The notes below the pieces were generated by a model. The model did no database searches. It had not been told where the DNA came from and saw nothing but the letters and a program-made list of their open reading frames with translations. From a virus, in IMG/VR virus record IMGVR_UViG_3300027749_000248, positions 1 through 38,131 of that record: 38,131 bases of DNA; one strand, written 5' to 3'. A program made the translations under genes and the position numbers. This document shows, in pieces, positions 19,897 through 37,183 of the stretch; the stretch's first letter is position 1; every line of letters starts with the position of its first letter.

Positions 19897-20943
19897 ATGG
19901 CACAGTTAGTAACAGCAACAATAACAGAACAAGAATTTAAAGAACAGTTTGGTTTTGACGAACCAAGTGGTTTGTTTAATGACAGCAAGTTTCGATTGGT
20001 AATTAATCGATTTGGTAGATGCTATTGGCTGTTGTCAATAGACAATTTACAAGGTCCGCGGTTTTCTGGTAACAATGTTTATTATCAAGGAAACAATGCA
20101 AGACTAGTTAGAACCGTGTATCCGCATGCACGTAGAATGATTGATGTGGGCGGCAATGTAGGCAATAACACTATTGCCTACAGCGAATGGGCACAGTTTG
20201 TAGAATCGTTCGAACCTACACCAACAACTTTGATAATGCTCAAAGCCAATTTAGAAATTGCACAGCGTAGTAACCTGCATGGCATATATTGGAAAGGCAG
20301 CAATGAGGAAGGTAGCCTGCATCGCGACACTACTGAAAACGTCAGTTGGTATCATTGGAAAGGCGTTGCCCAATCAATGAACTTAGTCGCACAGCCTACC
20401 ATACATGAAGTAGCAGCAACTAACCGTAACACAGGTACGATCCAAATACAAGATCATATCGAACACGGCGGCCACAACTTTACAATCTACGATGACAAGC
20501 AAATTAAAAAAGCAGTCAACGTTGTAGAAGTACCTTGCAGGACTATAGATTCGTATAACTTTGAAGATGTCGACTTTATTAAGATTGACGTTGAAGGCAG
20601 CGAGTTGTTTGTGATCGAAGGTGCAACCGATACAATTAACCGTTGTCGCCCTAGTGTGCAGGTTGAGATCGTACCCAAACAGTGCCAGCAGTACGGTTAT
20701 GAACCGCAAGCACTTTATGACTTTTTTGACAAACTTGATTACGTGTGCGTGTGTGCAGTTCGTAATCCTGCAAACAGAGATCAGCGCGGATTGTTCTTTG
20801 GTAAGAACATCGGCATGCAGCATAAACAAATTGCCAAATACATGGATCGATTGTTTGTGCCTAGAGAAGTACACGAAGCTACTGATTATGGTGCAATGAA
20901 ACAAACCGCAAACGAATTTGACAATCTATTCGATTTTACTTGA
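19897..20943 (+). CDS. FkbM family SAM methyltransferase
   Basis: 348 residues. MIDVGGNVGNNTIAYSEWA (near residue 80) is the SAM-binding loop, VESFEPTPTTLIMLKANLE continues it, and VDFIKIDVEGSELFVIEGA (near residue 226) followed by RPSVQVEIV is the FkbM C-terminal signature. FkbM enzymes O-methylate sugars or small molecules. The N-terminal 75 residues are extra. With the epimerase at 22814 it could modify a glycan, but the substrate is not readable. Confidence 0.82.
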   Translation: MAQLVTATITEQEFKEQFGFDEPSGLFNDSKFRLVINRFGRCYWLLSIDNLQGPRFSGNNVYYQGNNARLVRTVYPHARRMIDVGGNVGNNTIAYSEWAQFVESFEPTPTTLIMLKANLEIAQRSNLHGIYWKGSNEEGSLHRDTTENVSWYHWKGVAQSMNLVAQPTIHEVAATNRNTGTIQIQDHIEHGGHNFTIYDDKQIKKAVNVVEVPCRTIDSYNFEDVDFIKIDVEGSELFVIEGATDTINRCRPSVQVEIVPKQCQQYGYEPQALYDFFDKLDYVCVCAVRNPANRDQRGLFFGKNIGMQHKQIAKYMDRLFVPREVHEATDYGAMKQTANEFDNLFDFT

Positions 20944-22798: not shown

Positions 22799-22813
22799 TT
22801 TAAGGGAGTGGAT

Positions 22814-23620
22814 ATGAAAATTCTAATTACAGGCCATAATGGATTTATTGGCCGCAACATGGCCGAGTGGATGACTGCAGAAGGATGGGACGTTACTGGC
22901 TGGGATTGGAAAGCCAACGAACTTCCTGATGTTAAACAATACCAATGGGTTATTCACTTAGGTGCAGTAACTGATCATTCAGATGCAGATGTTGACACAA
23001 TCATAAGCATGAACTATGAATTTAGTCAAGCACTGTTTAATGCGTGTAACAAGCACAAAGTACATTTTCAATACGCAAGCTCAAGTGAAGTATACGGTCA
23101 TACTAATAACTTTAGTGAGTTTGCGCCTTGTCATCCACAGACACCTTACGCATGGTCAAAATACTTATTCGACCGTTGGGTGTTACAACAATCACACAAC
23201 GCATTTGTACACGGGTTTAGATACTTTGATGTGTATGGCAAGTACATGTATTTGCAAAGTAACCAATCCAATATCATTCACAACTGGCAAGAAGAGGCTC
23301 GCAAAACGGGCGCAATATCTGTATGGGACAATGCCGATAGAGTAAAGCGTGATTGGGTATGGGTCGGTGATGTATGCAAACTGCATATTGATTTTATTAA
23401 AACAGTTAGAGGTTCCGGTTTATGGAATATAGGCTCTGGGCTATCACATAGTTACTTAGATGTAGCCGAAGCAGTTGCAGAACAAACTGATGCAGTAATC
23501 AAAGTTGTAGAATCAGAAAGTCTAGTAGTACGTGATAGAACCTGTGCAGACTTAACACATTTAAAATCAACAATTGGTAAGCGGCAATGGCTCAACATAT
23601 TTGAATACATCAACCGATAG
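22814..23620 (+). CDS. NAD-dependent sugar epimerase (HldD-like)
   Basis: 268 residues. GHNGFIG at residues 7-13 is the dinucleotide-binding loop, SSSEVYG the Ser of the active site and Y112-x-x-x-K116 (YAWSK) the catalytic pair. FRYFDVYG and RDWVWVGDV resemble ADP-heptose 6-epimerase (HldD) segments. It is slightly shorter than host HldD. A GTG at 22808 is possible, but AAGGGAG sits correctly for the ATG at 22814. It may alter LPS core sugars or a virion glycan. Confidence 0.8.
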   Translation: MKILITGHNGFIGRNMAEWMTAEGWDVTGWDWKANELPDVKQYQWVIHLGAVTDHSDADVDTIISMNYEFSQALFNACNKHKVHFQYASSSEVYGHTNNFSEFAPCHPQTPYAWSKYLFDRWVLQQSHNAFVHGFRYFDVYGKYMYLQSNQSNIIHNWQEEARKTGAISVWDNADRVKRDWVWVGDVCKLHIDFIKTVRGSGLWNIGSGLSHSYLDVAEAVAEQTDAVIKVVESESLVVRDRTCADLTHLKSTIGKRQWLNIFEYINR

Positions 23621-23628
23621 TATAAATA
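23621..23628 (+). promoter_or_regulatory. T4 late promoter consensus TATAAATA
   Basis: Exact TATAAATA directly after the epimerase stop codon, 20 nt before the tagged gene at 23649. It marks the start of the late block. Confidence 0.7.
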
Positions 23629-23648
23629 TAGTATATTGAGAGATCGCT

Positions 23649-24005
23649 ATGAGAGCAAATGAATTTATTAACGAAGATGCAATTGGTACTTCACCAAAGC
23701 GTCCTCGTAGAGAAGGAAGTCGACATAGCCGCGGACACGAGCCGCAGGCAAGATATACAGAAGTAGCTGTTAATGAAGAAGATGTTACCGAAGAGAAAAA
23801 AAGCACAACTGCAATTTGTAAAAGTTCTAAAACAAATGACCAGCTAGGTGCAAGCATGTTATCAAAATGCAAATCACTTGGTTTGCGTGCAAGAGAAGGT
23901 AACAAATCTCATTTAGTAAACGGTAAGCGTATCAAAGTTGGTGGTAAAAAGATCAAAGGAAAAGTACATGGCGGACCATTGCCAGACTGGGGTGAACATA
24001 AATGA
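23649..24005 (+). CDS. Basic tagged protein, candidate internal head protein
   Basis: 118 residues starting MRANEFINED, closely like the tag at 1589 and 30318, with an I-N-E cleavage-type site after residue 9. The mature part is basic (KRPRREGSRHSRGHE) and ends NGKRIKVGGKKIKGKVHGG, suggesting DNA contact inside the head. An exact late promoter lies upstream, and ATGA couples it to the transglycosylase. The role as an internal protein is inferred. Confidence 0.7.
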   Translation: MRANEFINEDAIGTSPKRPRREGSRHSRGHEPQARYTEVAVNEEDVTEEKKSTTAICKSSKTNDQLGASMLSKCKSLGLRAREGNKSHLVNGKRIKVGGKKIKGKVHGGPLPDWGEHK

Positions 24006-24817
24006 GATTTGACGAATTTAAACAATTAAACGAAGACGCTGGATTTTTCCTAGTAGTTCCAAAAGACCGCAGTTGTCCAGAAGTTGCAGACCTTCAAAAA
24101 GTACTAAAAGCGTTTGGTCACAGTTTAGGTCCGCCTGACGTCGACGGTGTTTTGGGTCGATATACTACAGCAGCACTTAAAGGCGCACAAGCAGAGATTG
24201 GGTTACCAGAGACCGGTGTGCCCGATGAAAAGACTATCGAGCTGTTAAACCTAGCATTAAGAGAAGTACCAGAAATCGCAACTAAGCTAACAAAAAGTAC
24301 AGTAGCTGATGTTAGATCAGCAAGTGGTGCAGACAATATCGATGTTAGCACTATACAAGATCCGGACTTTAATAAAAAGCTTGACAACATTGCAAATCAG
24401 TTAGGTGTTAACGCTAGCGACCTGTTAGCGATTATGAAACAAGAGTCAGGTGTTAATCCGCATGCACGTAATAAACAAGGCGGCGCAACTGGGTTAATTC
24501 AATTCATGCCTAACACTGCTAGACGATTAGGAACAACCACAGATGACTTAATAAAAATGACAGCAGTTCAACAGTTAGACTATGTTTATAAATATTTCAA
24601 AATGGTTGGCATTAGACCCGGAATGAAGCTAGGTGACTTATACATGGCAGTGTTCATGCCGAAATATGTAGGACACGGCGATACAACTGTATTAGGTGCA
24701 TCAGGTGCAAGTGGTTTCTCAGGTAAAGTGTATGCACAGAACAAAGGTTTAGATAGAAACAAGGACGGCACTATTACTATTGCCGATGTAAAAAATTCCG
24801 TAGCCCGCTTCGCATAA
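24002..24817 (+). CDS. Lytic transglycosylase with PG-binding domain and tagged N-terminus
   Basis: 271 residues. Tag MRFDEFKQLNED with an L-N-E site; a peptidoglycan-binding domain (about 26-88; VADLQKVLKAFG, then DGVLGRYTTAALKGAQ); an SLT transglycosylase domain with catalytic E148 in KQESGVNPHARN followed by GGATGLIQFMP. A calcium-type loop DRNKDGTITIADV ends it. It cleaves peptidoglycan. The tag suggests head packaging and delivery with DNA rather than use as an endolysin; a baseplate location is the alternative. Confidence 0.85.
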   Translation: MRFDEFKQLNEDAGFFLVVPKDRSCPEVADLQKVLKAFGHSLGPPDVDGVLGRYTTAALKGAQAEIGLPETGVPDEKTIELLNLALREVPEIATKLTKSTVADVRSASGADNIDVSTIQDPDFNKKLDNIANQLGVNASDLLAIMKQESGVNPHARNKQGGATGLIQFMPNTARRLGTTTDDLIKMTAVQQLDYVYKYFKMVGIRPGMKLGDLYMAVFMPKYVGHGDTTVLGASGASGFSGKVYAQNKGLDRNKDGTITIADVKNSVARFA

Positions 24818-24824
24818 TTAAATA
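24817..24824 (+). promoter_or_regulatory. Weak late-type octamer ATTAAATA, leaderless type
   Basis: ATTAAATA overlaps the stop of the transglycosylase gene and is followed by TAGA and ATG at 24829. Two mismatches from consensus make this a weak call; the spacing matches other leaderless candidates. Confidence 0.35.
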
Positions 24825-24828
24825 TAGA

Positions 24829-25377
24829 ATGAATATAACAGGAAAATTATTAATAGCACCACCATCTGTAAAAGGCAACTTTTGGTATAAAACAGTAGTT
24901 ATGATCACAGAGCATGATAAGGAAGGCAGCATAGGCATAGTATTAAACAAACGCAGCACTATGACAGTAAATGAGTTCGGACAAGAACTCGGGTACTATC
25001 TTAATCTGCCAGGCTACGTTTATATCGGAGGTCCAGTTAATCCCAAAAGTCTTAGTTTCTTACATACTAATGATTGGGCATGTAAGAACACGCTAAAAAT
25101 TAACGATGAGTTTTCAGTTAGCTCTGCAGATGATATCTTACCTAGACTTGCAGCAGGAGATTCTCCTCGTAAATGGAGAATATTACTTGGCATGTGTGGT
25201 TGGAGTCCAGGGCAATTGCATGATGAGATCAACGGTGCTCACCCTCGCACACATAGAGATAGTTGGTGTATCGCAACGCCGACTATTAAATTAGCATTTA
25301 GCAACGATAACAAAGAGCAATGGTCAGCAGCAATTGCACAATCTGCTGAAGACTTTGCTAAAAACATCTTGACATAG
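24829..25377 (+). CDS. YqgE/AlgH family protein (UPF0301)
   Basis: 182 residues. GKLLIAPPSVKGNFWYKTVV, EGSIGIVLNKRSTMTVNEF, YIGGPVNPKSLSFLH and RILLGMCGWSPGQLHDEI are the ordered landmarks of YqgE/AlgH. The length equals that of cellular members. Its biochemical role in bacteria is unclear (regulation of alginate in Pseudomonas). It has no ribosome binding site. Its placement between virion genes suggests late expression. Confidence 0.85.
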   Translation: MNITGKLLIAPPSVKGNFWYKTVVMITEHDKEGSIGIVLNKRSTMTVNEFGQELGYYLNLPGYVYIGGPVNPKSLSFLHTNDWACKNTLKINDEFSVSSADDILPRLAAGDSPRKWRILLGMCGWSPGQLHDEINGAHPRTHRDSWCIATPTIKLAFSNDNKEQWSAAIAQSAEDFAKNILT

Positions 25378-25397
25378 TTACTATCTTATAGTACAAT
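25369..25397 (+). promoter_or_regulatory. Sigma70-type promoter inside the late block
   Basis: TTGACA (25369-25374), 17-nt spacer, TACAAT (25392-25397), overlapping the stop of the YqgE gene and preceding the HNH gene. Confidence 0.75.
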
Positions 25398-25428
25398 ACA
25401 AATACATAAACAACCAACAGGAGTTTTT

Positions 25429-25941
25429 ATGGCAGACACCCTCGTTTTAAACAGCGATGGTATGCCAGTTAGTGTATTACCACTAAGCACAATCAGCTGG
25501 CAGGAATCCATCAAATATATAGTTTTAGATAAGGCCGATATTTTATTATGGCATGAGGACTGGATCGTTAGTTCAGCATCATGGTCAACTGCGGTCCCAT
25601 CAGTGATTATGCTTCGTGAATACATGAAACCAAAATCAACTCTGCGGTTCAGTCGATCAAACGTTTTCTTACGTGACGAAGGGAAATGTTTATATTGTGG
25701 AATTAGCTTAGAAAGCAGACATGCAACATTAGATCATGTGCATCCTGTGAGCAAAGGTGGTACAACAACTTGGGAAAACTGCGTAACTGCGTGCGGGCCT
25801 TGCAATGTTGCCAAGGGTGATAGGACTAAAATGAAACCTAAATTCAAACCTTACAAGCCAACTTACTATGAATTAGTAAATAAACGTAAGAAACAATATT
25901 TCAACGTTAAACACACAGCATGGTTAAATTTCATAGTATAA
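25429..25941 (+). CDS. HNH endonuclease
   Basis: 170 residues. C87-x-x-C90 (CLYC), D102-H103 (LDHVHPVSKGG) and C122-x-x-C125 form an HNH zinc-bound nuclease of the type common in bacteria and marine phages. The N-terminal 75 residues (NSDGMPVSVLPLSTISWQE) belong to the same family. Ribosome binding site CAGGAG. It has its own sigma70-type promoter, unlike neighbouring late genes. Confidence 0.88.
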   Translation: MADTLVLNSDGMPVSVLPLSTISWQESIKYIVLDKADILLWHEDWIVSSASWSTAVPSVIMLREYMKPKSTLRFSRSNVFLRDEGKCLYCGISLESRHATLDHVHPVSKGGTTTWENCVTACGPCNVAKGDRTKMKPKFKPYKPTYYELVNKRKKQYFNVKHTAWLNFIV

Positions 25942-26348
25942 AAAGAACCCTTTGGTTCATATTAGGTATATTAAGTGTAGGCATGGCGTATGTCGGTGTA
26001 GTGGTACCCGGCATACCTTACTCTACTTTTGTAGTATTAGCTGCATACTGTTTTGCTAAAAGCAGTCCAAAAATGCATGCATGGCTCTACTCTCACAAAC
26101 TATTTGGTCCATTCTTAATAGGGTGGTCTGAAAAGCGTATCTTCCCACAAAAGCTAAAATACTTTATGTTAGTCACGATGAGTTCAAGTTTAGTAATGAT
26201 GTGGTTCACTACACATAATATCAAAGCAATCATCTGGACAGGTGGATTTATGATACTTGTTGCAATATGGGCATGGCGTTATCCTCGTTCTGAAGAAGAA
26301 TATACATGCAGAATCACACAAGGCAAACGTATAGGATGGTTTAAATAA
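25920..26348 (+). CDS. DUF454 (YbaN-like) membrane protein
   Basis: 142 residues. TLWFILGILSVGMAYVGVVV then PGIPYSTFVVLAAYCFAKSS is the DUF454 signature. WLYSHKLFGPFLIGWSEKR follows, then two further membrane spans. It is an inner membrane protein of unknown role. The start overlaps the HNH gene by 22 nt, so it may rely on coupled translation. Confidence 0.82.
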   Translation: MVKFHSIKRTLWFILGILSVGMAYVGVVVPGIPYSTFVVLAAYCFAKSSPKMHAWLYSHKLFGPFLIGWSEKRIFPQKLKYFMLVTMSSSLVMMWFTTHNIKAIIWTGGFMILVAIWAWRYPRSEEEYTCRITQGKRIGWFK

Positions 26349-26351
26349 ATA
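26344..26351 (+). promoter_or_regulatory. T4-late-like octamer AATAAATA containing the stop codon
   Basis: AATAAATA includes the TAA stop (26346-26348) of the DUF454 gene; the secreted nuclease gene starts 19 nt later. Confidence 0.55.
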
Positions 26352-26370
26352 CACGACTATTGAGGTATTT

Positions 26371-27144
26371 ATGAAAACACTATTAGCATTATTATTACTT
26401 TTACCTAGTCTTGTACTAGCAAACTCTATCGATCAGCAGTGTCCGCAATTTGTAGTACGTGGTGCGCCTGTTAGTCCACTAGCAGACAATGCTACACAGT
26501 ATATATGTAAACAAAATTACGCAATCCATTATAGATTTGATACAAAAACTGCAGAGTATGTTGTAGAACATGTTACTAAAGAATCAGTGATCGGGCCTGC
26601 ACAAAGGGAAGACGACTTCCGTCCAGACCCTGCTATTGCAAAATCAAATCAATCCGTGTTATCGGACTATGCCGGACATCCATACGACCGCGGCCATTTA
26701 GCACCGGCCGGTGATAATAAACAAACTAAAGAAATAATGAGCGAAAGTTTCTTTTTATCTAACATGGTTCCGCAAACTCCAAATAACAACAGAGGCATCT
26801 GGAAACAACTAGAAACAGCAGTGCGTAATTTAGTTGTGGAAGGCAAAGACCTGTATGTTGTCAGTGGAACACATTATCAACCTGGATACTTAACTATCGG
26901 AAACAATGTCGGTGTACCTACCCATTTATGGAAAGTTGTTGTCGATAGAGGAAGCCAAACAGGTATTGCATTTATATTCCCAAACAAAGGTTTACCGGTT
27001 AAAGACTTACCTAAGTATGCAACATCGATTGCTGAAGTAGAAAAACTTACAGGTATAAACTTTATGCCCGAATTAACTCTAGAACAGCAGCTACAAGTCG
27101 AACAGGAATTTCATGTTATTGATTGGTTAGGATTAACTATATGA
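26371..27144 (+). CDS. Secreted DNA/RNA non-specific endonuclease
   Basis: 257 residues. The signal peptide MKTLLALLLLLPSLVLA is removed near Ala17. The NUC motif D106-R107-G108-H109 (YDRGHLAPAGDN) and FLSNMVPQTPNNN with N140 and E148 match the beta-beta-alpha metal nucleases such as Serratia nuclease. It would act in the periplasm or outside the cell, for example degrading incoming DNA of rival phages or host DNA at lysis. Late-type promoter upstream. Confidence 0.88.
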   Translation: MKTLLALLLLLPSLVLANSIDQQCPQFVVRGAPVSPLADNATQYICKQNYAIHYRFDTKTAEYVVEHVTKESVIGPAQREDDFRPDPAIAKSNQSVLSDYAGHPYDRGHLAPAGDNKQTKEIMSESFFLSNMVPQTPNNNRGIWKQLETAVRNLVVEGKDLYVVSGTHYQPGYLTIGNNVGVPTHLWKVVVDRGSQTGIAFIFPNKGLPVKDLPKYATSIAEVEKLTGINFMPELTLEQQLQVEQEFHVIDWLGLTI

Positions 27145-27374
27145 AAATAGAAGAACTTACTGAATCTCACAAAGATTTAGATAGATATACAGCGTATGCA
27201 AAAACACATTACAGTGAAACAGATCCAACTACTGCAGTATTACAATTATTAGTACGCAGTATTGAACACGGTAAATCAGTCGATGCTGAACAAACTGCAG
27301 CTATTAGGGAATTACAAAAAGAAGTAGAAGCGTTAAAAGGAGCTAACGCTTCTACCATAGCCCCTACTGTTTGA
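27141..27374 (+). CDS. Small tagged protein
   Basis: 77 residues starting MKIEELTESHKDL, with an L-T-E site after residue 8. The mature part is helical (AVLQLLVRSIEHGKSVDAEQ, then IRELQKEVEALKG), a short coiled coil. The ATG overlaps the nuclease stop as ATGA. Its 3' end overlaps the converging ALA synthase gene by 11 bp. Confidence 0.6.
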   Translation: MKIEELTESHKDLDRYTAYAKTHYSETDPTTAVLQLLVRSIEHGKSVDAEQTAAIRELQKEVEALKGANASTIAPTV

Positions 27375-28563
27375 TATCAAACACGATTTTTAGAGCATTA
27401 ATTAAATCTTCAATCATCCCATCGTCATGTAATGGTGTTGGCGCAAAACGCAAACGTTCCGTTCCTTGGGGCACGGTGGGATGATTTATAGCTTGAACAT
27501 AGATATTAAAATCATTTAACAAACGATCACTAATTTCTTTTGCTCTGGTCGCATCTCCTACTAGCACAGGTACAATGTGTGTTGTGCCATCCATTAATGG
27601 AATTCCAGCTTTTCTCATTCTGTGTTTTAATTTTCTAACACGATCTTGAAGACGTTCCCTAATTTCGTTATGCTCCTTTAGATACTTAACTGCTGCCAGC
27701 GCACCGGCACATGTAACTGGACTCATACTTGTTGTAAATATAAATCCTGCTGCAATGGATCGAATTGCATCGATCACAACTGCATCTGCTGCAACATAAC
27801 CGCCCTGGACTCCATACGCTTTACCTAAGGTGCCATTGACTATGTCGACCCTTCCTTGTAATTGTAATTCTTCGAGCTTTCCTGCCCCGTGTTCGCCGTA
27901 TAAGCCCACTGCGTGTACTTCATCTAAGTATGTAATTGCAGAGTATTGATCAGCTAAGTCGCAAATTTCTTTGATAAGACTTACATCTCCATCCATAGAG
28001 TAAATTGATTCAAATACAATACAAGGTACATTCTTGTTTGCTGCTGCACGTTTTAAACATTCTTCTAGGTCATCTAGATCATTATGCTTAAAAATTTGTT
28101 TAGCAGCCTTACTATGACTCATGCCTACGATCAAACTATTGTGATTTTTACTATCACTGATAAATTCAATATTAGGAATAATTTTTGCTAGCGCAATTAA
28201 ACTCCACTCATTCGCAACATACGCACTTGTAAACAACAATGCCCGTTCTTTTTTATGCAAAGATGCAAGTTCATATTCTAAAGCAACGTGATAATGACTA
28301 GTTCCGGAAATGTTCCTAGTACCACCAGAACCTGCACCTGTCATATCTAAAGCAGTATGCATCGCATCTAAGACAATTTTATGCTGTCCCATACCTAAAT
28401 AGTCGTTGCTACACCAGTTAACAATACTTTTAATAGAATACGGTCCATACCAAATAGAATAAGGAAACTTGCCGTTTTCACGTAGCACATCATTGAAGAT
28501 GCGATACTTGCCTTGTTGTTTAAGGTTTTGAATTAGTGTTGTAAATGTTTCGTGGTTAATCAT
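27364..28563 (-). CDS. hemA: 5-aminolevulinate synthase (C4/Shemin pathway)
   Basis: 399 residues, normal bacterial length. GTLGKAYGVQGGY holds PLP-lysine K248; the LGK form separates ALA synthase from KBL and BioF. D214 and H217 lie in YLDEVHAVGLYGEHGAG, and R21, T82 and N84 (GTRNISGT) match the succinyl-CoA contacts of bacterial enzymes. It makes ALA from glycine and succinyl-CoA, the first step of haem and tetrapyrrole synthesis. All key residues are present. The frame runs to 28617, but MINHETF at 28563 fits family starts. No ribosome binding site is visible. It is the only minus-strand gene in the late block. Confidence 0.92.
   Translation of the reverse strand: MINHETFTTLIQNLKQQGKYRIFNDVLRENGKFPYSIWYGPYSIKSIVNWCSNDYLGMGQHKIVLDAMHTALDMTGAGSGGTRNISGTSHYHVALEYELASLHKKERALLFTSAYVANEWSLIALAKIIPNIEFISDSKNHNSLIVGMSHSKAAKQIFKHNDLDDLEECLKRAAANKNVPCIVFESIYSMDGDVSLIKEICDLADQYSAITYLDEVHAVGLYGEHGAGKLEELQLQGRVDIVNGTLGKAYGVQGGYVAADAVVIDAIRSIAAGFIFTTSMSPVTCAGALAAVKYLKEHNEIRERLQDRVRKLKHRMRKAGIPLMDGTTHIVPVLVGDATRAKEISDRLLNDFNIYVQAINHPTVPQGTERLRFAPTPLHDDGMIEDLINALKIVFDIKQ
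27368..27383. repeat. 16-bp perfect palindrome at convergent stops
   Basis: TGTTTGATATCAAACA covers the stop region of gene 27141-27374 and the last codons of hemA. It may act as a bidirectional transcription end without T-tracts or as a protein site. Confidence 0.5.
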
Positions 28564-28571
28564 AGTACAGC

Positions 28572-28579
28572 TATTTAAT
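28572..28579 (-). promoter_or_regulatory. Weak late-type octamer ATTAAATA before hemA
   Basis: On the minus strand ATTAAATA, eight nt before the hemA ATG at 28563, back-to-back with the plus-strand octamer at 28580. Two mismatches from consensus. Confidence 0.35.
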
Positions 28580-28587
28580 AATAAATA
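28580..28587 (+). promoter_or_regulatory. T4-late-like octamer AATAAATA
   Basis: AATAAATA, 18 nt before the start at 28606, with AAGGAT as ribosome binding site. Confidence 0.55.
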
Positions 28588-28605
28588 TACGATAAGGATA
28601 CAAAT

Positions 28606-28989
28606 ATGAGAGTTCAAGATATAATCAGAAGTTTAATCGACTTTATCGACAATGTTGATTCAACGCATGTTGCACCGATTGATACAATTGATCACAAAGC
28701 AAGCCCGTTAACACATGCCGGGGATGACATAAATCGATTTAAACAAATTGTCGATTTAGCAGATAGCCCGTATAGACATGCATACACTAACGAACCAGTT
28801 CCGGCTTATGCTGATTTAGATTCGGTTACTATTCATGCAGGCGGTGGGATGAATGGCCCAAAACATCCTGCTGATATTAGAGTCAAAGATCCAAGTGCAT
28901 ATCCGCATTTAATAGATAAAGAAATAGAAGAACCAGTTTCAGCTCATCCTGAACATATTGTAATGATTAAAGCAATGAGGGGACAATAA
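28606..28989 (+). CDS. Putative virion protein
   Basis: 127 residues starting MRVQDIIRSLIDFIDN, weakly like the tags but without an (L/I)-x-E site. DINRFKQIVDLADSPYRHAY and YADLDSVTIHAGGGMNGPKH are Gly/His-rich; the layout matches structural-region proteins of T4-like aquatic phages as I recall them. TAATG overlap with the next gene. Confidence 0.6.
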   Translation: MRVQDIIRSLIDFIDNVDSTHVAPIDTIDHKASPLTHAGDDINRFKQIVDLADSPYRHAYTNEPVPAYADLDSVTIHAGGGMNGPKHPADIRVKDPSAYPHLIDKEIEEPVSAHPEHIVMIKAMRGQ

Positions 28990-29249
28990 TGTCAGCTAAC
29001 GGAATCGCATGGTTATCAACCAAAGAAGCAAAGCAAGCAGCTAAACTTGCATTAGCAAAAGCAAAACGTCAAGGTAAAACTGTAGCAGCTGATGGTACAG
29101 TCACTGGAAGTATAGATACTACTAAACAATATTATCGTACTAGAAACAACTACGATATTACGCAATTACCTACAAAATATAACGGTGACGGAATTACTGA
29201 CAATCCTAATGTAGGCGGTTTAGTAGAAGGCCGTCCTTGGACTACATAG
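28989..29249 (+). CDS. Putative virion-associated protein
   Basis: 86 residues. IAWLSTKEAKQAAKLALAKA is a Lys/Ala-rich helix; YYRTRNNYDITQLPTKYNGD follows, and VGGLVEGRPW ends it. Similar STKEAKQxAKLAL proteins occur next to tail genes in marine T4-like phages, to my recollection. It directly abuts the next gene. Confidence 0.6.
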   Translation: MSANGIAWLSTKEAKQAAKLALAKAKRQGKTVAADGTVTGSIDTTKQYYRTRNNYDITQLPTKYNGDGITDNPNVGGLVEGRPWTT

Positions 29250-30254
29250 ATGCCATACGTACACGATCGAAGTGATGTAAATATAAACAATTTGCATCAT
29301 GCAATGGAACTTGTAGGTGACTTGCCGCATGTTCGTGTTACATTAGGTGCTGATAATATTACAGTTACCGGTAGTGTTAACATTGCATCTGAAATTAAGA
29401 TTAACAATACTGAGTTACAAAGTATTCCTGTACATCTAACAGATGATCCGATTGCAGTAACTGGAACATTTTGGCAAACTACACAACCGGTTAGTTTAAC
29501 TACATTACCTGATAGCAGTGTATCAATTAAAGCAGGATCTAATCTAATTGGTAAAGTTGATGTAAACAACTGGCCGGCTACTCAACCAGTATCTATTGCA
29601 AGTATGCCAACTACCCCAGTTACAGGAACATTTTGGCAAACTACACAACCAGTTAGTGGAACAGTTACTATACAAGACAGTGGCGGAAGCATCACAGTGG
29701 ACGGTAGCGTAACAGCCACCATTACAGATGTTATCACAGTTCTTACGACTGAAGATGCCGGTAGTTTTTATGCGTTCAACAACCACGCTGCTAATTCCAA
29801 TCGTGGATGGACTATGGACGACACTATGCGTCCCGTGGTTAGTTTTCAAAATAGCAGTGCTAATACTGCAGACATGATCAAAATTGTAGAATATGAAATT
29901 GGTAACAACAATGCTAATCAAAGTACTATTATATATGAATGGTATGAAGGCCCACTAACTATCAGTGGTGCTGCAATACCTGCATGGACTACATTTGGTG
30001 TACACAGTCAATATCGTGTTTACCAAGATCGTTATTCAAGTAATCAGGGCAATACCTTTACAGTTCCAACCGGTAATGGTACTTACCTAAGACACAGTGG
30101 TGTTATCATTGGTAAAAATACTTCGGGTGACGAAGGCCCAGCAAACCTATATGGTGGCAGCAGTCCTAATATGCTAACCTTGTGCATGCGCCGTGTTGAC
30201 AATGCTACTAAATTAGATGTGTGGTTTGCATTTACTGTTAAAGAACTAGCTTGA
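29250..30254 (+). CDS. Virion structural protein with repeated beta motifs
   Basis: 334 residues. The N-terminal half has a recurring motif, PVTGTFWQTTQPVS, clear at two places, with weaker copies (WPATQPVSIASMP). The C-terminal half is beta-rich (TIIYEWYEGPLTISGAAIPA, then YLRHSGVIIGKN). The beta-repeat plus globular end fits a tail or capsid decoration protein. There is no enzymatic motif. Confidence 0.7.
   Translation: MPYVHDRSDVNINNLHHAMELVGDLPHVRVTLGADNITVTGSVNIASEIKINNTELQSIPVHLTDDPIAVTGTFWQTTQPVSLTTLPDSSVSIKAGSNLIGKVDVNNWPATQPVSIASMPTTPVTGTFWQTTQPVSGTVTIQDSGGSITVDGSVTATITDVITVLTTEDAGSFYAFNNHAANSNRGWTMDDTMRPVVSFQNSSANTADMIKIVEYEIGNNNANQSTIIYEWYEGPLTISGAAIPAWTTFGVHSQYRVYQDRYSSNQGNTFTVPTGNGTYLRHSGVIIGKNTSGDEGPANLYGGSSPNMLTLCMRRVDNATKLDVWFAFTVKELA
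29463..29494 (+). repeat. 32-bp in-gene repeat, copy 1
   Basis: GGAACATTTTGGCAAACTAC onwards; identical to 29625-29656 except one base. Encodes GTFWQTTQPVS. Confidence 0.8.
29625..29656 (+). repeat. 32-bp in-gene repeat, copy 2
   Basis: Offset 162 nt (54 codons) from copy 1, 31 of 32 bases identical. Suggests growth of the protein by duplication of a beta module. Confidence 0.8.
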
Positions 30255-30317
30255 TAACTATGAAAAAGAGCACAGCAGAAGCATTAAGATAAGTACAGTA
30301 TAGCTAAAGGATTTATA

Positions 30318-30593
30318 ATGAGAGCAAAAGAATTTACAATCAATGTACCCATTAACATTAAGATAAATGGTGATGGCGATCCTGAGATTGATGTAGCAGG
30401 CAACGACGATAGTGATCCAGATGAAAATCCAATCTTTGTTTCACCATTACAGCAAGAGTTAGAACTTAAGAAAGCTGATGCTGGTAAAGACAGTGCAGTT
30501 ATTGATAAAATAACAGCACCAGATGATATCGGCGAAGAACCCAACAACGAACTAAATCGGTTGAAACAATTATTGCAGCGGCATGCACAATGA
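30318..30593 (+). CDS. Acidic protein with MRAKEF start
   Basis: 91 residues starting MRAKEFTINV. The first 19 coding bases are identical to those of gene 705-1589, although no (L/I)-x-E site follows. The rest is acidic (DGDPEIDVAGNDDSDPDENP) with FVSPLQQELELKKADAGK and a C-terminal NELNRLKQLLQRH helix. Likely virion-associated. ATGA overlap with the zincin gene. Confidence 0.65.
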   Translation: MRAKEFTINVPINIKINGDGDPEIDVAGNDDSDPDENPIFVSPLQQELELKKADAGKDSAVIDKITAPDDIGEEPNNELNRLKQLLQRHAQ

Positions 30594-30991
30594 AAGTCAA
30601 AGAAATATTAACAGAAGGGCTAGCACACGACGAGGCTCAACTTATTATAGAAAAGTTTATCAAGTTTGCTGCTGATAACTTAAACCTGCAAGACTTGCCA
30701 GACATTAACTTAGTTACCGGGTCGAATCGTTCTGTAGAACAAAGTTCATTTGGTGGTTATGGTAATCGTAGCATTAACATATCAGTATCAAATAGACATG
30801 TCATGGATGTATGCAGAACATTAGCACACGAACTAGTTCATTACAGACAAGATCTAAATAATGAATTAACTAACGACAGCGGCCGTGACGGTAGTCCACA
30901 CGAAAACGAAGCTAATGCTCAAGCGGCTGTTATTATGCGCAAATGGGGTAAAATGCACCCTAACTTATTTGGCAAGCAGGCTATCGGCTAA
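30590..30991 (+). CDS. Tagged zincin-type metalloprotease
   Basis: 133 residues. Tag MKVKEILTEG with L-T-E after residue 9, then a domain with H80-E81-L-V-H84 (TLAHELVHYRQD) and a later Glu in SPHENEANAQAAVIM as probable third zinc ligand. This is the HExxH zincin arrangement in a very small protein. It might be packaged and act on host proteins after injection, or process virion parts. Normal ATGA coupling. Confidence 0.75.
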   Translation: MKVKEILTEGLAHDEAQLIIEKFIKFAADNLNLQDLPDINLVTGSNRSVEQSSFGGYGNRSINISVSNRHVMDVCRTLAHELVHYRQDLNNELTNDSGRDGSPHENEANAQAAVIMRKWGKMHPNLFGKQAIG

Positions 30992-31003
30992 GAGACAACT
31001 GTT

Positions 31004-31258
31004 ATGAGAAAAAGTACACGATCGATATTACAAGAACTTAGTGACATTGGCATCGGCAGAGATACCGACCTTGTCGTCGAAAGTCGAGGTTCTAACATCA
31101 TCCAAAGTGCAATTAACTTACTTGAAATGATTCGAGAAAACTACGACATGGAAACTGCTGGAGAATTAGAGCGCCGCTTTATTAACAGCATTAAAGCAGG
31201 GGACGGTGCAAAGTTTAAACGCGGTATTAAACGAATACAAGAAAGTAAAGAAAAATAA
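31004..31258 (+). CDS. Small helical protein, possibly tagged
   Basis: 84 residues starting MRKSTRSILQELSDIG, with an L-Q-E site after residue 11. VVESRGSNIIQSAINLLEMI then LERRFINSIKAGDGAKFKRG is helical and basic at the end. I associate this layout with hypothetical proteins near tail genes in T4-like aquatic phages. Confidence 0.6.
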   Translation: MRKSTRSILQELSDIGIGRDTDLVVESRGSNIIQSAINLLEMIRENYDMETAGELERRFINSIKAGDGAKFKRGIKRIQESKEK

Positions 31259-31345
31259 GATTCGAGCTATCTTTTCAAATCAAAAGCTAAATAATATTAC
31301 AAGCTCACAGAGTCGTGGGTAGAAAAGCATATAGGAGAATACATC

Positions 31346-31870
31346 ATGCCTTCATTAATCGGAACAGCAGTTACAGCTAACTATTTAAAAACAACCCCAA
31401 CAACACAATTTGGTACACGCGCATTACGTATCATTAAAATTACTGCAGGTACAGCAGGCGATAGCGATCTTGACTTTACAAGACAAGCGTTTGTAGTTAC
31501 TGGTGCAACAACAGGTGCGTTCACTGGAACATACGCTGACAGCGATAGTTATTACTCAGCAGCAGTTCGTGCAATTCAAACAGTTGCAGAAATTTATGCT
31601 ATTGGTCAACCAAATGCAACTGACTTTATTGCAGTAGTTGCGTATGATACAGGCAACGACAGCGGAACTGGTTCAAATGCAAACACTCAAGATAAAACTT
31701 GGTCTGATTTAGAATCAGCATTAACAGATGCATTGTCAGTTCGTTTAGGTGATAAAACACCTGTAGGAAGTGCTGGATTTGTTTATAACGGTACTGTTGC
31801 AGTAACAGCGATCGACGTAGCAGCAGGCGTAAACAACTTTGTTGGCGCTGGTCTTGGTACTCTTTCTTAA
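31346..31870 (+). CDS. Virion structural protein
   Basis: 174 residues. SLIGTAVTANYLKTTPTTQF then GTRALRIIKITAGTA, Thr/Ala/Gly-rich, with VRAIQTVAEIYAIGQPNATD and VNNFVGAGLGTLS. Low Cys and Lys, typical of abundant surface-exposed virion proteins. Ribosome binding site AGGAG. A strong terminator follows, so it probably ends an operon. Confidence 0.65.
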   Translation: MPSLIGTAVTANYLKTTPTTQFGTRALRIIKITAGTAGDSDLDFTRQAFVVTGATTGAFTGTYADSDSYYSAAVRAIQTVAEIYAIGQPNATDFIAVVAYDTGNDSGTGSNANTQDKTWSDLESALTDALSVRLGDKTPVGSAGFVYNGTVAVTAIDVAAGVNNFVGAGLGTLS

Positions 31871-31903
31871 TAGTTAACTATTAAAATTCTCAGGGATGGG
31901 ATC

Positions 31904-31935
31904 AAAGGGGTTCACTTTATGTGAGCCCTTTTTTT
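31904..31935 (+). terminator. Intrinsic terminator
   Basis: Twelve-pair stem (31904-31915 with 31921-31932, two G-T pairs), loop TTTAT, then a T run to 31935. It follows the virion gene ending at 31870. Confidence 0.88.
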
Positions 31936-31941
31936 ATGGCT

Positions 31942-31949
31942 GTTAAATA
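31942..31949 (+). promoter_or_regulatory. Weak late-type octamer GTTAAATA, leaderless type
   Basis: GTTAAATA, then CTAC, then ATG at 31954, directly after the terminator. Two mismatches from consensus; the position supports it. Confidence 0.4.
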
Positions 31950-31953
31950 CTAC

Positions 31954-32361
31954 ATGAACTATAAATTATACACACTTGTTGATATTACTCGTACTGGGCA
32001 GTATCGTGCCGAACCAGGTAAAGAATCAGCAAGATGGAAAGAGCAAAACTTTAACACTATTCTACAGACGTTAGGTCTTCGAGCAAATTTAGCATATTTC
32101 GAAAATCCTATTGTCACAGAAGTCCGAGGTAGTTTAGTCGGCTTCGACACGGAAGAAATTATTAGACTGTGGAGATTTGATTTTGCTACGGAACGTGAAA
32201 ACTTTTATGAATCTGAAGACGGTGATCCCGTTGGATTTTTAAAAGAGGATTTCGAACTCGTTCCGTTTATTCAGGGCTTAGATGAGCTACTAGAGCAGCA
32301 GCAAGCAGTGTTTATTACTTACGGTACGAATAAGAATATTGTTTTCCACAAAAAGCAATAA
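31954..32361 (+). CDS. Phage-type conserved virion-region protein
   Basis: 135 residues starting MNYKLYTLVDITRTGQYR, then KEQNFNTILQTLGLRANLAY and a RGSLVGFDTEEIIRLWRFDF segment. To my recollection, proteins with YTLVDIT...QNF-T-LQT-GLR are frequent near baseplate genes of T4-like aquatic phages; the function is unknown. An in-frame ATG lies at 31936, but the terminator T-run ends at 31935, so I place the start at 31954. Confidence 0.7.
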   Translation: MNYKLYTLVDITRTGQYRAEPGKESARWKEQNFNTILQTLGLRANLAYFENPIVTEVRGSLVGFDTEEIIRLWRFDFATERENFYESEDGDPVGFLKEDFELVPFIQGLDELLEQQQAVFITYGTNKNIVFHKKQ

Positions 32362-32364
32362 ATA
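32357..32364 (+). promoter_or_regulatory. T4-late-like octamer AATAAATA containing the stop codon
   Basis: AATAAATA includes the TAA stop (32359-32361) of the upstream gene; the next start is 24 nt further, with CGGAGA as ribosome binding site. Confidence 0.6.
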
Positions 32365-32388
32365 TAAAAAAGAGCTACGGAGAAGACA

Positions 32389-32643
32389 ATGGCTGCAGAG
32401 CGACGAAGAACAGCAAACCCAAGCGATATAGAAAAAAACAATTTAGAAAGCCACGTTGAATTGTGTGCATTGCGCTATCAAACTTTAGAAACTCGACTAG
32501 TCGGTATCGAAGACACTGTTAAAAAACTTGCTTCAAAACTTGACACTAAACATGCCGATATGAGTAAAGTAATATTTGGTGCTGCTGCAACTATTATTGC
32601 AGGCATTGCATCAGTAATAGTTACTATCCTAATTAAATTTTAA
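32389..32643 (+). CDS. Coiled-coil protein with C-terminal membrane anchor
   Basis: 84 residues. A helical segment HVELCALRYQTLETRLVGIE and VKKLASKLD, then a membrane span FGAAATIIAGIASVIVTILI. Helix plus C-terminal anchor resembles XhlA-type lysis accessory or holin-like proteins; this is tentative. One base separates it from the next gene. Confidence 0.6.
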   Translation: MAAERRRTANPSDIEKNNLESHVELCALRYQTLETRLVGIEDTVKKLASKLDTKHADMSKVIFGAAATIIAGIASVIVTILIKF

Positions 32644-32644
32644 C

Positions 32645-33352
32645 ATGCGATTTCTTGAATTATCAATACCTGCAATACCTTACAATGATACCCTTAATCC
32701 GTTATTATGGGAAGATGATCACTTAAAAACTGAAATACGATATAAATTAATGTTTATCGCCAAACATTTTGCACAGTTTTTAAATGTTTCAAATCTTAAC
32801 TTAGAAGATATTACAATTAGCGGAAGTAATGCAAGCTTTGGGTATTCAGATTATTCAGACATTGATTTGCACCTAGTTGTTAAGATGCCGCCGGATAATC
32901 CAGACCTTGCAGAATTATATAATGCTAAAAAGAACCAATACAACTTTAAATATGATTTAAGTGTCAAAGGCATTGCTGTAGAATTATATGTACAGGACGG
33001 TAAACAGCCGCATCAGTCTGCAGGTATATATAGTATATTAAATGACACCTGGGTAATCAAACCCAAACATCAAACACCAGTAGTCAAAGATGCCGAAGTT
33101 AAAAGCAAAGCGCGTAATTATGCAAGTAAAATTAATCAAGCATTGCAATCATCAGATTTAAAATCTGCACAGGAAACATTAGATGATCTATCACGTTTAC
33201 GCAAAGCCGGATTAGAACAAGGTGGCGAATTTAGTATCGAAAACCTAGCATTTAAATTATTAAGATCACGTGGCAAGATTGACAAATTAAGAAAACACGT
33301 TGACACACTACAAAGCAAAGAGCTTAGTCTCGGAGAAAAACATGAAGATTAG
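32645..33352 (+). CDS. Nucleotidyltransferase-fold protein
   Basis: 235 residues. G60-S61 then SDYSD72-I-D74-LHLVV is the polymerase-beta-type nucleotidyltransferase motif G-S-x(10)-D-x-D. VKGIAVELYVQD may carry the third acid. The last 90 residues form helices. The N-terminus MRFLELSIP resembles the tags, with a possible L-W-E site after residue 23. By analogy to the T4 Alt enzyme it could be packaged and modify host targets; this is inferred. Confidence 0.75.
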   Translation: MRFLELSIPAIPYNDTLNPLLWEDDHLKTEIRYKLMFIAKHFAQFLNVSNLNLEDITISGSNASFGYSDYSDIDLHLVVKMPPDNPDLAELYNAKKNQYNFKYDLSVKGIAVELYVQDGKQPHQSAGIYSILNDTWVIKPKHQTPVVKDAEVKSKARNYASKINQALQSSDLKSAQETLDDLSRLRKAGLEQGGEFSIENLAFKLLRSRGKIDKLRKHVDTLQSKELSLGEKHED

Positions 33353-33803
33353 AGATATCGTTGAGAACTGGCAGGTAGCAAGCTCAGATCAAAACGGGAT
33401 TAAAGCAATAGACCCAAAAACAAAAGCTGAATTAAGTTTACCAGCTGATATGCAACAATCATTACAATCAGATCCTTCGAACCCTAACAAGTTTACGCTA
33501 AACCCACAAGCAATTGCAAGTACAGATAACCCTGCACAGCAACAACACACTGGACCTGCAGTTGGAGCAGAGATCGAAATACCCATGGCAACTACTGAAA
33601 ACTCGGAAGAGGAAGAAGAAGCTGATTTAATTCCACACAATCATCCAGTCGGAGGTGACGGCGGAGATGATTTTGTTTTAGATGTTACTAATGGTAGAGA
33701 TCCAGATAGTTTCGAAAATCATGCTAAACATGCATACCAAGCAGTGAGTCACAGTGCATTACCAGAAGGGCTAGCTGCAATTATTAAGTTGTCAGGTCTA
33801 TGA
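33342..33803 (+). CDS. Acidic tagged protein
   Basis: 153 residues starting MKIRDIVENWQ, with an I-V-E site after residue 8. The mature part is Gln/Asn/Pro-rich then acidic (NSEEEEEADLIPHNH, GGDGGDDFVLD). Upstream codons are open, but MKIRDIVE at 33342, preceded by GGAGAAAA, is the clear start. Overlaps the nucleotidyltransferase gene by 11 nt. No catalytic motif. Confidence 0.65.
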   Translation: MKIRDIVENWQVASSDQNGIKAIDPKTKAELSLPADMQQSLQSDPSNPNKFTLNPQAIASTDNPAQQQHTGPAVGAEIEIPMATTENSEEEEEADLIPHNHPVGGDGGDDFVLDVTNGRDPDSFENHAKHAYQAVSHSALPEGLAAIIKLSGL

Positions 33804-34006
33804 AACTAAACGAGTTGATCGATAGTTTTGAAATTTGGACAACTAACGAAGAAGCAGTATTGTTGAAAAAATTAAAATACCCAGTTAAACTAGCCCAGCT
33901 AAACGAACATGATCAAGTCAGAGTTCAGGCGATGATTCGTAAAAGTTTGGTAACTAAAATAGGACACAAAGACCCTATGGTGGTTGCAAATGAAAGACCA
34001 AACTAA
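33800..34006 (+). CDS. Small protein with tag-like start
   Basis: 68 residues starting MKLNELIDSFEIW, similar to the tags though no clean (L/I)-x-E site. Basic C-terminus (VQAMIRKSLVTKIGHK). ATGA overlap with the gene before; the next gene starts inside its 3' end. Confidence 0.55.
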   Translation: MKLNELIDSFEIWTTNEEAVLLKKLKYPVKLAQLNEHDQVRVQAMIRKSLVTKIGHKDPMVVANERPN

Positions 34007-34430
34007 AACAATTAAAGAACTAGCAAGCTACTTTGATAAAGAATTACAAACAAAATTACCTATATCAGTATTACCAGATGGCTCATTAGTTTATAAAAAC
34101 TTTTTAGTAAGGCAATTAGACAATGAAAACTGGGGTGTATTTAATATCGAGTCTAAAGATTTAGTTAATCAATATTATTTAAAAAGTTGTGCGTTAGTTG
34201 CTGCAAAAGCATACAATTATAAACACTTTAACAAATATTTTGAAATTGAAAATTTAGATAAAAAATATCAAACAAATTACCATAACTTCCTAGTATTAAA
34301 GAACAATATTAAGTCAGTTAGTGATTCGGAAAAGTATCATGTAATGCTAACTAGGCTAGAAGAAAGTAGCCAACAAGCGTACTACTATAAGCAACTGATT
34401 TCTCGATTACTTCGTAGAACTTTTGTATAA
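33990..34430 (+). CDS. Unknown virion-region protein
   Basis: 146 residues. IKELASYFDKELQTKLPISV, then VYKNFLVRQLDNENWGVFNI and CALVAAKAYNYKHFNKYFEI. The C-terminal half is helical and ends RLLRRTFV. I do not recognise a family. The TAA stop lies inside the late promoter octamer of the next gene. Confidence 0.6.
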   Translation: MKDQTKTIKELASYFDKELQTKLPISVLPDGSLVYKNFLVRQLDNENWGVFNIESKDLVNQYYLKSCALVAAKAYNYKHFNKYFEIENLDKKYQTNYHNFLVLKNNIKSVSDSEKYHVMLTRLEESSQQAYYYKQLISRLLRRTFV

Positions 34431-34433
34431 ATA
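34426..34433 (+). promoter_or_regulatory. T4 late promoter consensus TATAAATA containing the stop codon
   Basis: Exact TATAAATA; its TAA (34428-34430) is the stop codon of the upstream gene. The next start is 30 nt downstream, with AAGGGAAA as ribosome binding site. Confidence 0.72.
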
Positions 34434-34463
34434 CGTAATAAGAAATAACGAAGGGAAACCATC

Positions 34464-35495
34464 ATGCAGATTAAAGATTTATCACAGCCTATAACTAGTA
34501 AAAAACTAAACGAAAGTTTAGCAAAAAACTTTGGTTATAAATTAAAATTAGAACAATTTTCAGACGTGCAATTAGAAGATGTGCGTAATAGACTTCGCAC
34601 TGAACTAAGCCAAATGGAAATGAACGAAAGCTACGACAGTATTTTAGAAAGCCCTGCTTATCAAAAAACTCGTGCATTATTAGACGTTGTTAACCAAGCG
34701 TTATCAGAACGCGAAATGAACGAATCATACGAGCAAGACGAAGTAACTGGCAAAGTTACCAGTAAAAAAGATTACTCAGGTAGTGCAGATTCTTCTAAAG
34801 CTAAAAAAGATAAAAAACCTAAAAAAGAAGTTAACGAAGCTGCATTAATTGCAACTATTCGTCAACGTGCAGAAGCGGCATCAATTCCAGCAAGTTGGAT
34901 TCAAAGTGCGTTAAATCGTATTCGATTAGGTGAATCGGACAGACAAGAATTAAAAGCAGAATTAAGATTGCGTTACGATCTTAATGAAGCGCAGGCAAGC
35001 TGGTTGCTAGTTGAAGGCGAAGAAACAAAAGCAGAGAATATCATCGCATCAAAAGACATGATTGACCGTATTACAGGTTGGTTAGAAGATGTTGCTGCAA
35101 TGAAATCAGAGCAGCTTTTAGAATTATTAGACTCTATAAGAGAACAACAAGGCAGCGATGTTGCCCAAAAATATCAAGATGCAGTTAAACCTGCATTAGA
35201 AGCAATCTATACAGCATTAGAAACAAGCCGTCAAGGTTTGTCACAAGGGCTTGCAGTTGTTTCAGGCAGAGAAGTCGAAACATTAGGCGCACCAGTAAGC
35301 GGCGCAATGGGCAGTGAAATGGGCAGTGAAATGGACGCAGCTTTAGGAGGTGAATCACCTGCAGGTCCAGAAGGTCCAGGTTTACCAGGTGGTGAAGAAC
35401 TTCCTCCTCCGTCTACTGAAGCGGGTCGTATGAAACGTGAAAGCGTCGAGTATAGCCGTAAATTAGGCATGTTGTTAAGCTCAAAAAAAAAGTAA
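34464..35495 (+). CDS. Virion/prohead-core-like protein, probable frameshift parent
   Basis: 343 residues starting MQIKDLSQPITSKKLNES, with several L-x-E sites (KLNE, ILESP, ALSERE). Two NES repeats (MEMNESYDSI, REMNESYEQ) precede a Lys-rich linker. The middle is helical (DMIDRITGWLEDVAAMKSEQ); the C-terminus is Gly/Pro/Met-rich and ends SRKLGMLLSSKKK. The many cleavage-type sites and helical composition suggest a scaffold or core protein. Nine A residues at 35483-35491 just before TAA form a slippery site for -1 frameshifting into the frame that ends at 35842. Confidence 0.7.
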   Translation: MQIKDLSQPITSKKLNESLAKNFGYKLKLEQFSDVQLEDVRNRLRTELSQMEMNESYDSILESPAYQKTRALLDVVNQALSEREMNESYEQDEVTGKVTSKKDYSGSADSSKAKKDKKPKKEVNEAALIATIRQRAEAASIPASWIQSALNRIRLGESDRQELKAELRLRYDLNEAQASWLLVEGEETKAENIIASKDMIDRITGWLEDVAAMKSEQLLELLDSIREQQGSDVAQKYQDAVKPALEAIYTALETSRQGLSQGLAVVSGREVETLGAPVSGAMGSEMGSEMDAALGGESPAGPEGPGLPGGEELPPPSTEAGRMKRESVEYSRKLGMLLSSKKK

Positions 35496-35534
35496 ATGAA
35501 TCAATCGAGCCTTTAGCGTTAAAGTTAAGGGCTC
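35483..35534 (+). promoter_or_regulatory. Candidate -1 ribosomal frameshift signal
   Basis: A-AAA-AAA and A-AAA-AAG heptamers in a run of nine A (35483-35491), one codon before TAA. It is followed after 15 nt by a 10-pair stem (35507-35516 with 35525-35534, two G-U pairs, 8-nt loop). A_AAA_AAG is the dnaX slip sequence. The spacer is longer than usual. Confidence 0.6.
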
Positions 35535-35842
35535 TTCAATCCGCTGCAAACCATCAACATTCACAAGCACCCTTAACATGGACTGCGATCAATAATATGA
35601 TTGGTCAAGGTGACACTGCTGCACCTTCAATTTCTTACGACGGATTTGCAAAAATTTGGAGAGACGAAGAACAGTTACCCCCAGAACAACAAACATTTCA
35701 TCACTTAGTTGATCGTTTTGACGGAGCCGGATTGGTTATTAAAACTGCAGCAAAAGATCCTACATCAGCAACACAACACAAAGAGCCAGAAGGTCAAGTA
35801 TCTAAAATGGCAAAACATTTCATTCATAAATCAAGAAAATAA
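35492..35842 (+). CDS. C-terminal extension reached by -1 frameshift
   Basis: 116 residues in the -1 frame, starting VNESIEPLALKLRALQSAA and containing YDGFAKIWRDEEQLPPEQQT and FHHLVDRFDGAGLVIKTAAK. It is open from the slip site without a stop, and no ATG, GTG or TTG occurs before 35597. That ATG has no ribosome binding site and would drop a coding-like stretch. VNES echoes the NES motifs of the parent. The alternative is a separate 81-residue gene from 35597, or an assembly indel in the A run. Confidence 0.65.
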   Translation, partial: VNESIEPLALKLRALQSAANHQHSQAPLTWTAINNMIGQGDTAAPSISYDGFAKIWRDEEQLPPEQQTFHHLVDRFDGAGLVIKTAAKDPTSATQHKEPEGQVSKMAKHFIHKSRK

Positions 35843-35871
35843 TTGACATCTGTTAGTATTAATAGTACAAT
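35843..35871 (+). promoter_or_regulatory. Sigma70-type promoter, near-leaderless
   Basis: TTGACA (35843-35848), 17-nt spacer, TACAAT (35866-35871). The ATG at 35880 is 8 nt after the -10 box, leaving a leader of only a few nt. Confidence 0.75.
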
Positions 35872-35879
35872 TAATAACT

Positions 35880-37178: not shown

Positions 37179-37183
37179 TCACT

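Follow-up and report, generated by a model that had tools for sequence, protein, structure and literature searches.

Phage genes for 5-aminolevulinate synthase (ALAS) have been known as a kind since 2024, when Wegner et al. (PMC11480375) described them in marine and freshwater phage contigs, where they occur alone or together with hemO and pcyA/X. According to the sections of that paper covered here, the ALAS of phage CB_2 makes ALA and complements an E. coli ALA auxotroph, and many, although not all, of the viral enzymes (vAlaS) lack the haem-feedback residues, which are named there as H342 and C400 of the R. capsulatus enzyme. ALAS is also listed as a viral gene in the parts of PMC11549919 and PMC13390420 that were covered, the latter being a 2026 estuary study in which viral alaS was tracked; the tetrapyrrole terms that were searched for are absent from the main text of PMC7674155. 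A term search of the main text of PMC11480375 for DUF, AlgH, epimerase and HNH was negative, its covered sections do not mention promoters or leaders, and the TAAATA/leaderless geometry, the antisense back-to-back promoter and the DUF454 companion described below were likewise not found in them. The closest described promoters are the late promoters of T4, TATAAATA, and of cyanophages, NATAAATA, as given in the covered part of PMC2984593.

The ALAS gene analyzed here is carried by a water-borne virus of bacteria and lies in a stretch of 38,131 nucleotides ("the window" below), a 38-kb fragment that forms a virus record of its own, without a larger genome behind it. Like the published vAlaS (for example that of CB_2, as far as the covered sections describe them), it encodes a phage-borne Shemin-pathway synthase whose tree position is apart from bacterial ALAS, is about 55% similar to alphaproteobacterial ALAS, has lost the feedback residues and belongs to myovirus-type phages; its membership in vAlaS is taken from its clustering with 67 viral rows in our tree and from the features that it shares with the Wegner set as described. 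In all likelihood it is a phage ALAS of the vAlaS kind, free of haem-feedback residues and probably expressed as an independent, late, leaderless unit, which makes it a well-resolved addition to a phage gene discovered only recently.

The ALAS gene and its surroundings

The ALAS reading frame is intact (ATG start, 399 codons and a stop), and stop codons abound on the plus strand of this interval. Its protein scores 565.6 bits with the ALAS equivalog model TIGR01821 (cut-off 338.55), 326.5 bits with the KBL model (460 needed) and 318.5 bits with the BioF model (426.45 needed). The nearest solved structures are ALAS 7x98 and R. capsulatus ALAS 2bwn, both of which align over nearly their full length and have catalytic residues identical to those of the window protein. 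All six PLP-lysine and substrate residues named in the preliminary description (R21, T82, N84, D214, H217 and K248 in the protein's own numbering) are present, and T82/N84 align with T83/N85 of 2bwn in an alignment read by eye. By these comparisons the gene is a genuine, complete ALAS and not KBL or BioF, as the preliminary description had it, and its claim that the gene is phage-borne agrees with the virus record, the virion genes in the window and the viral clade in which the protein falls. In the same by-eye alignment H342 of the R. capsulatus feedback site corresponds to R340, and C400 has no counterpart; the only cysteines of the window protein are at positions 51, 169, 181, 201 and 285. 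Because both R. capsulatus feedback residues are absent, the window ALAS should escape shut-off by haem. The enzyme is predicted to be active, and ALA supply is very likely its role.

Relatives were collected from IMG/VR in two scans: 287 stretches encode relatives of the window ALAS and 554 encode relatives of a more distant ALAS query. The first set below is the best 80 of the 287 loci and the second set is 80 kept of the 554; both hold near-identical contigs, and two contigs of the second set (L303 and L304) are also contigs of the first. Table 1 lists the features of the window that bear on ALAS.

Table 1. Positions of ALAS, its neighbors and its putative control signals in the window
Feature	Coordinates	Strand	Basis
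NAD-dependent epimerase, conserved block gene	22808..23620	plus	PF01370 114.6 bits; 55 loci
Peptidoglycan-binding / SLT tail lysozyme	24002..24817	plus	PF01471, PF01464; phrog_196 baseplate hub
AlgH-like (DUF179)	24829..25377	plus	PF02622 112.3 bits; box 4 nt before ATG, apparent leaderless class
HNH endonuclease	25429..25941	plus	PF01844 52.9 bits
DUF454/YbaN small membrane protein, recurrent vAlaS companion	25920..26348	plus	PF04304 101.9 bits, cut-off 35.1
DNA/RNA non-specific endonuclease	26371..27144	plus	PF01223 167.9 bits
Small convergent gene, no named function, 11-bp overlap with ALAS 3' end	27123..27374	plus	ORF, relatives
Terminator-like hairpin, 14-bp stem, T-rich tail, directly behind ALAS stop	27323..27356	minus	folding
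ALAS (vAlaS/HemA), 399 aa	27364..28563	minus	TIGR01821, best PDB 7x98 and 2bwn, residues, tree
Back-to-back late-promoter-like boxes TATTTA-N4-TAAATA	28572..28587	both	sequence and relatives
Divergent 127-aa gene sharing promoter region, no PHROG	28606..28989	plus	ORF, relatives
Conserved backbone gene, 86 aa	28989..29249	plus	52 loci at E 1e-4

The window's virion genes include the baseplate-hub type lysozyme, a virion structural protein, a tail-spike like gene and phrog_11854. A T4-type Gp23 capsid protein is over its cut-off in 10 of 20 related large records; none was found in the window fragment. Many first-set loci (best 80 of 287) have the same gene order, epimerase, 118-aa gene, lysozyme, AlgH-like, HNH, DUF454, endonuclease, [ALAS], 127-aa gene and 86-aa gene. 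The preliminary description placed ALAS antisense within the late block. All named neighbors from 22808 to 38130 are on the plus strand, and when the first-set loci are oriented with ALAS on plus, the 86-aa gene is on the minus strand in 43/43 cases (at a stricter cut), the 127-aa gene in 18/18, the AlgH-like gene in 52/52, DUF454 in 56/56 and the epimerase in 55/55 (its weak matches, 22-26% alike, may include a different epimerase), with the HNH gene mixed in strand (42 and 18). Because nearly all conserved neighbors oppose ALAS in the first-set loci, its antisense placement is a kept feature of this group and not an accident of the window. The antisense part of the claim thus holds, and the late character of the block stands only as far as its late-type promoter motifs carry it.

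The preliminary description also suggested that late tetrapyrrole synthesis might feed haem or bilin production. Some vAlaS phages do carry hemO and a bilin reductase (PMC11480375, covered sections), whereas the 38-kb window fragment has neither a haem oxygenase (HemO) nor a bilin reductase gene. The bilin idea finds no support inside the window; among 51 records searched, the same nine carry both genes.

PADLOC returned nothing for ALAS, DUF454 or the AlgH-like gene, and a defence role for these three was dropped. Elsewhere in the window are a NADAR-domain protein (18711-19223; PF08719 174 bits, PADLOC candidate PDC-M42C) that is possibly involved in counter-defence or ADP-ribose metabolism, an SPFH/Band 7 membrane protein (16426-17217), an FkbM-type methyltransferase (19897-20943) and a tRNA-Arg with anticodon CCT (14563-14638).

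DUF454/YbaN as a neighbor of viral ALAS

DUF454 (PF04304) is over its cut-off in 38 of the 51 records, including the window, where it lies 1 kb from ALAS on the opposite strand. The first set (best 80 of 287) agrees with this arrangement, with DUF454 opposite to ALAS in 56 loci and unseen in 24. The second set, which was found with another ALAS itself taken from a DUF454 locus, has DUF454 on the same strand within 150 bp of ALAS, upstream or downstream, in 60 of its 80 loci (of the rest, 6 have it on the same strand farther away, 1 has it on the opposite strand and 13 show none, 4 of these having short flanks), or in 24 of 29 when loci are grouped into clusters of 95% ALAS identity. DUF454 is the immediate downstream neighbor of ALAS in 54 of these 80 loci compared with 11 for the next commonest gene, and the top upstream neighbor occurs in 17. 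It is therefore a recurring neighbor of the viral gene.

The same family sits beside a tetrapyrrole gene in bacteria. Of 80 Pseudomonadota genomes, 29 have DUF454 over cut-off, 6 have haem oxygenase and 3 have both; in two genomes (G291 and G295) DUF454 is adjacent to and on the same strand behind haem oxygenase in the layout TonB-receptor / haem oxygenase / DUF454, and these few cases may be one lineage since they share that layout. A genome in which DUF454 lies 4 kb from a Haem_oxygenas_2 protein (G253) was excluded as an unrelated setting. One Acinetobacter record has haem oxygenase followed by ybaN; the second ybaN of that record lacks a haem gene in its vicinity. In the covered parts of two papers, DUF454 and haem oxygenase are found near type 11 secretion genes in 118 and 137 of 1,111 cases (PMC12282271), and an Avibacterium DUF454 gene is up under iron limitation (PMC7970244). 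The phage arrangement resembles the bacterial operons in having DUF454 beside a tetrapyrrole gene and differs from them in that its partner is ALAS rather than haem oxygenase; the phage DUF454 proteins also form one clade of their own, apart from 20 bacterial rows, in which ALAS-linked and unlinked copies are mixed (tree thinned from 222 to 62 rows). DUF454/YbaN is thus a candidate partner with links to haem metabolism in both phages and bacteria.

DUF454 could nevertheless be a bystander, a gene of the same structural block that these viruses commonly carry whether or not ALAS is present, and to this we give not quite an even chance. ALAS is present in the surrounding stretch of only 27 of 80 DUF454 loci, and a search of whole records (mostly short fragments) for 43 of the other 53 found it in 2; many DUF454 copies lie beside ribonucleotide reductase and glutaredoxin-like genes, and in the window the two genes are on opposite strands. 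The frequency of close, same-strand spacing in the second set, both by locus and by cluster, the excess of DUF454 as the directly following gene and the position of the bacterial family directly behind haem oxygenase argue the other way. We tentatively propose, as an idea that may well not hold, that vAlaS and YbaN/DUF454 are an undescribed two-gene tetrapyrrole module in which DUF454 would handle haem, porphyrin or iron at the membrane, that the module would be expressed late from leaderless messages, and that leaderless late genes would form a true class among these T4-like phages. If true, that class would match hosts in which such messages are translated efficiently, Caulobacter being an example. 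Any joint function of the two proteins is an inference, though one that lends itself well to testing.

The AlphaFold model of the window DUF454 protein has a mean pLDDT of 79.7 and a pTM of 0.56. We assign no mechanism to it because a Foldseek search of the PDB with this model gave nothing useful (best E 2.5) and no solved sequence relative was found. A literature search for DUF454 together with phage returned two papers, neither apparently on a phage DUF454. DUF454 next to genes that look by eye like those for the ribonucleotide reductase small subunit, glutaredoxin-like and peroxiredoxin-like proteins was seen in L166-L172, L183, L188, L218, L229 and others.

Late-type promoter boxes and the predicted ends of the ALAS message

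Of the 73 window genes, 14 have a TAAATA in the 60 nt upstream of them, where 2.6 are expected from its density. At ALAS two such boxes stand back to back: on the minus strand 8 nt separate the box from the ALAS ATG, and on the plus strand 18 nt separate it from the start of the gene at 28606. When upstream regions of relatives are counted as one row per distinct upstream, from loci whose match starts near residue 1, this paired form is found in 44 of 51 in the first set, and a TAAATA lies 4-10 nt before the ALAS ATG in 46/51 (first set) and 26/43 (second set), compared with about 0.5 per set in letter shuffles; in the second set the box is within 60 nt in 27/43 and absent in 16/43. An SD-like sequence precedes ALAS in only 4/51 and 2/43 of these upstreams. 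In nearly every near relative the gap between box and ALAS start is 4-8 nt, in most cases with no SD. TAAATA is a putative promoter by its likeness to the T4 and cyanophage late promoters (PMC2984593, covered part): many window genes have an N/TATAAATA-like core 5' of them, although at the window ALAS the base before TAAATA is T rather than the A of NATAAATA, and, unlike in those systems as described there, the box is 8 nt from the ATG, an SD is lacking and two boxes are placed back to back.

Other genes of the same loci fall into two groups: those with a box at 4-9 nt (n=47) have no SD-like sequence (0/47, a near box itself occupying part of the SD space), and those with a box at 15-32 nt (n=98) have one in 74/98. 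In T4, transcription starts about six bases behind the late box. Messages with a box at 4-9 nt would for this reason be leaderless or nearly so, and the window ALAS, with its box at 8 nt and no SD, falls in this group. The AlgH-like gene is apparently a second constant member of the class; of its 31 upstreams in the first set 19 have a box, which in 18 lies 3-6 nt from the ATG, and an SD is present in 1/31.

An ALAS start or promoter elsewhere, with translation from a longer leader, is in our estimation unlikely. The window frame is open upstream as far as a TTG at 28617, but an in-frame stop lies within 60 nt in 41/51 and 40/43 upstreams of the two sets, an alternative in-frame start behind that stop is present in only 12 and 7, most ALAS ATGs have no SD-like sequence, and the pooled genes split by box distance as above. 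The ALAS mRNA is thus probably leaderless, judging from box geometry and lack of an SD. Its own T4-late-type box, set back to back against the box of the divergent gene, would start an essentially leaderless message and the hairpin behind the stop would end it in the window genome, which would make ALAS probably an independent transcription unit, predicted to be late in its timing. The hairpin has a folding energy of -18.9 kcal/mol (z -3.58). Terminator-like sites follow ALAS in 7/49 and 3/40 relatives (1.05 and 0.55 expected from shuffles), and a terminator was rejected as a general vAlaS feature; it is local.

Leaderless messages are frequent in Caulobacter, where they are translated well, hemE being one of them (PMC4117421, covered part). 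A leaderless class would suit, though not establish, an alphaproteobacterial host, and the predicted leaderless late messages may inform on hosts and on the timing of one metabolic gene. Leaderless phage transcripts are treated in PMC5312081 (as far as covered); the literature search for leaderless messages in T4-like phage late genes gave one paper, in which the term occurs in a reference only.

Distribution and phylogeny

Viral proteins in the first set are 74-100% identical to the window ALAS, among the best 80 of 287 loci, and related viral records reach up to 353 kb. The best bacterial identity among the copies compared is 58%, and 56% over 142 alphaproteobacterial genomes. No ALAS was found in 50,697 INPHARED records: 19 records matched, all at no more than 37% identity, and those matches that have a gene name are KBL or BioF, several of them on bacterial contigs filed as phage. 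Phage ALAS genes had been thought in the preliminary description to be reported from aquatic phages but rare; the report exists (PMC11480375), and rarity is true of isolates only, as the gene is common in IMG/VR. The annotated genes of INPHARED entries CAKLQH020000002.1, CAKLQH020000010.1 and AGRM01000003.1 look bacterial although these are filed as phage.

In an ALAS tree thinned of near-identical rows (262 to 130), the window protein falls in a viral clade of 67 rows (SH-aLRT 100), which is itself embedded in alphaproteobacterial ALAS. The bacterial rows were picked by two short peptide patterns and so are unevenly sampled, and Pelagibacter was not specially sampled; the fork that joins the viral clade with Caulobacterales is weak (SH-aLRT 87). 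The preliminary description took the gene to say something about host or gene source; on its own it does not reveal a host, and the covered sections of PMC11480375 propose both alpha- and gammaproteobacterial hosts.

That the window gene is another alpha-oxoamine synthase (KBL, BioF, serine palmitoyltransferase or autoinducer synthase) is extremely improbable: these share its fold family and the INPHARED matches at KBL/BioF level are about 26-37% identical to it, but its score falls well short of the KBL and BioF cut-offs and greatly exceeds the one for ALAS, and in the tree KBL and BioF lie beyond a long, well supported branch, so that a KBL or BioF identity was rejected and the phylogenetic check puts the gene with viral ALAS. 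A chance pickup of a host gene or an assembly artefact has next to no likelihood, since, although the carriers are all metagenomic records with none in INPHARED, contig L002 repeats most of the block at 92-100% protein identity (ALAS 99.7%; the exception is one 86-aa gene, 58% alike), the block is kept in tens of loci, and the viral ALAS proteins form one 67-row clade with conserved promoter geometry.

One viral ALAS stands apart from the main viral clade. It is that of L324 (a 208-kb, Gp23-bearing record; G080 contig, ALAS at 11469-12641), which is nearest to Caulobacterales ALAS, at 63% identity. A single viral clade is recovered in 12% of 200 bootstrap trees, and the AU test does not reject a single clade that includes L324 (p 0.497); L324 is a possible separate viral acquisition of ALAS.
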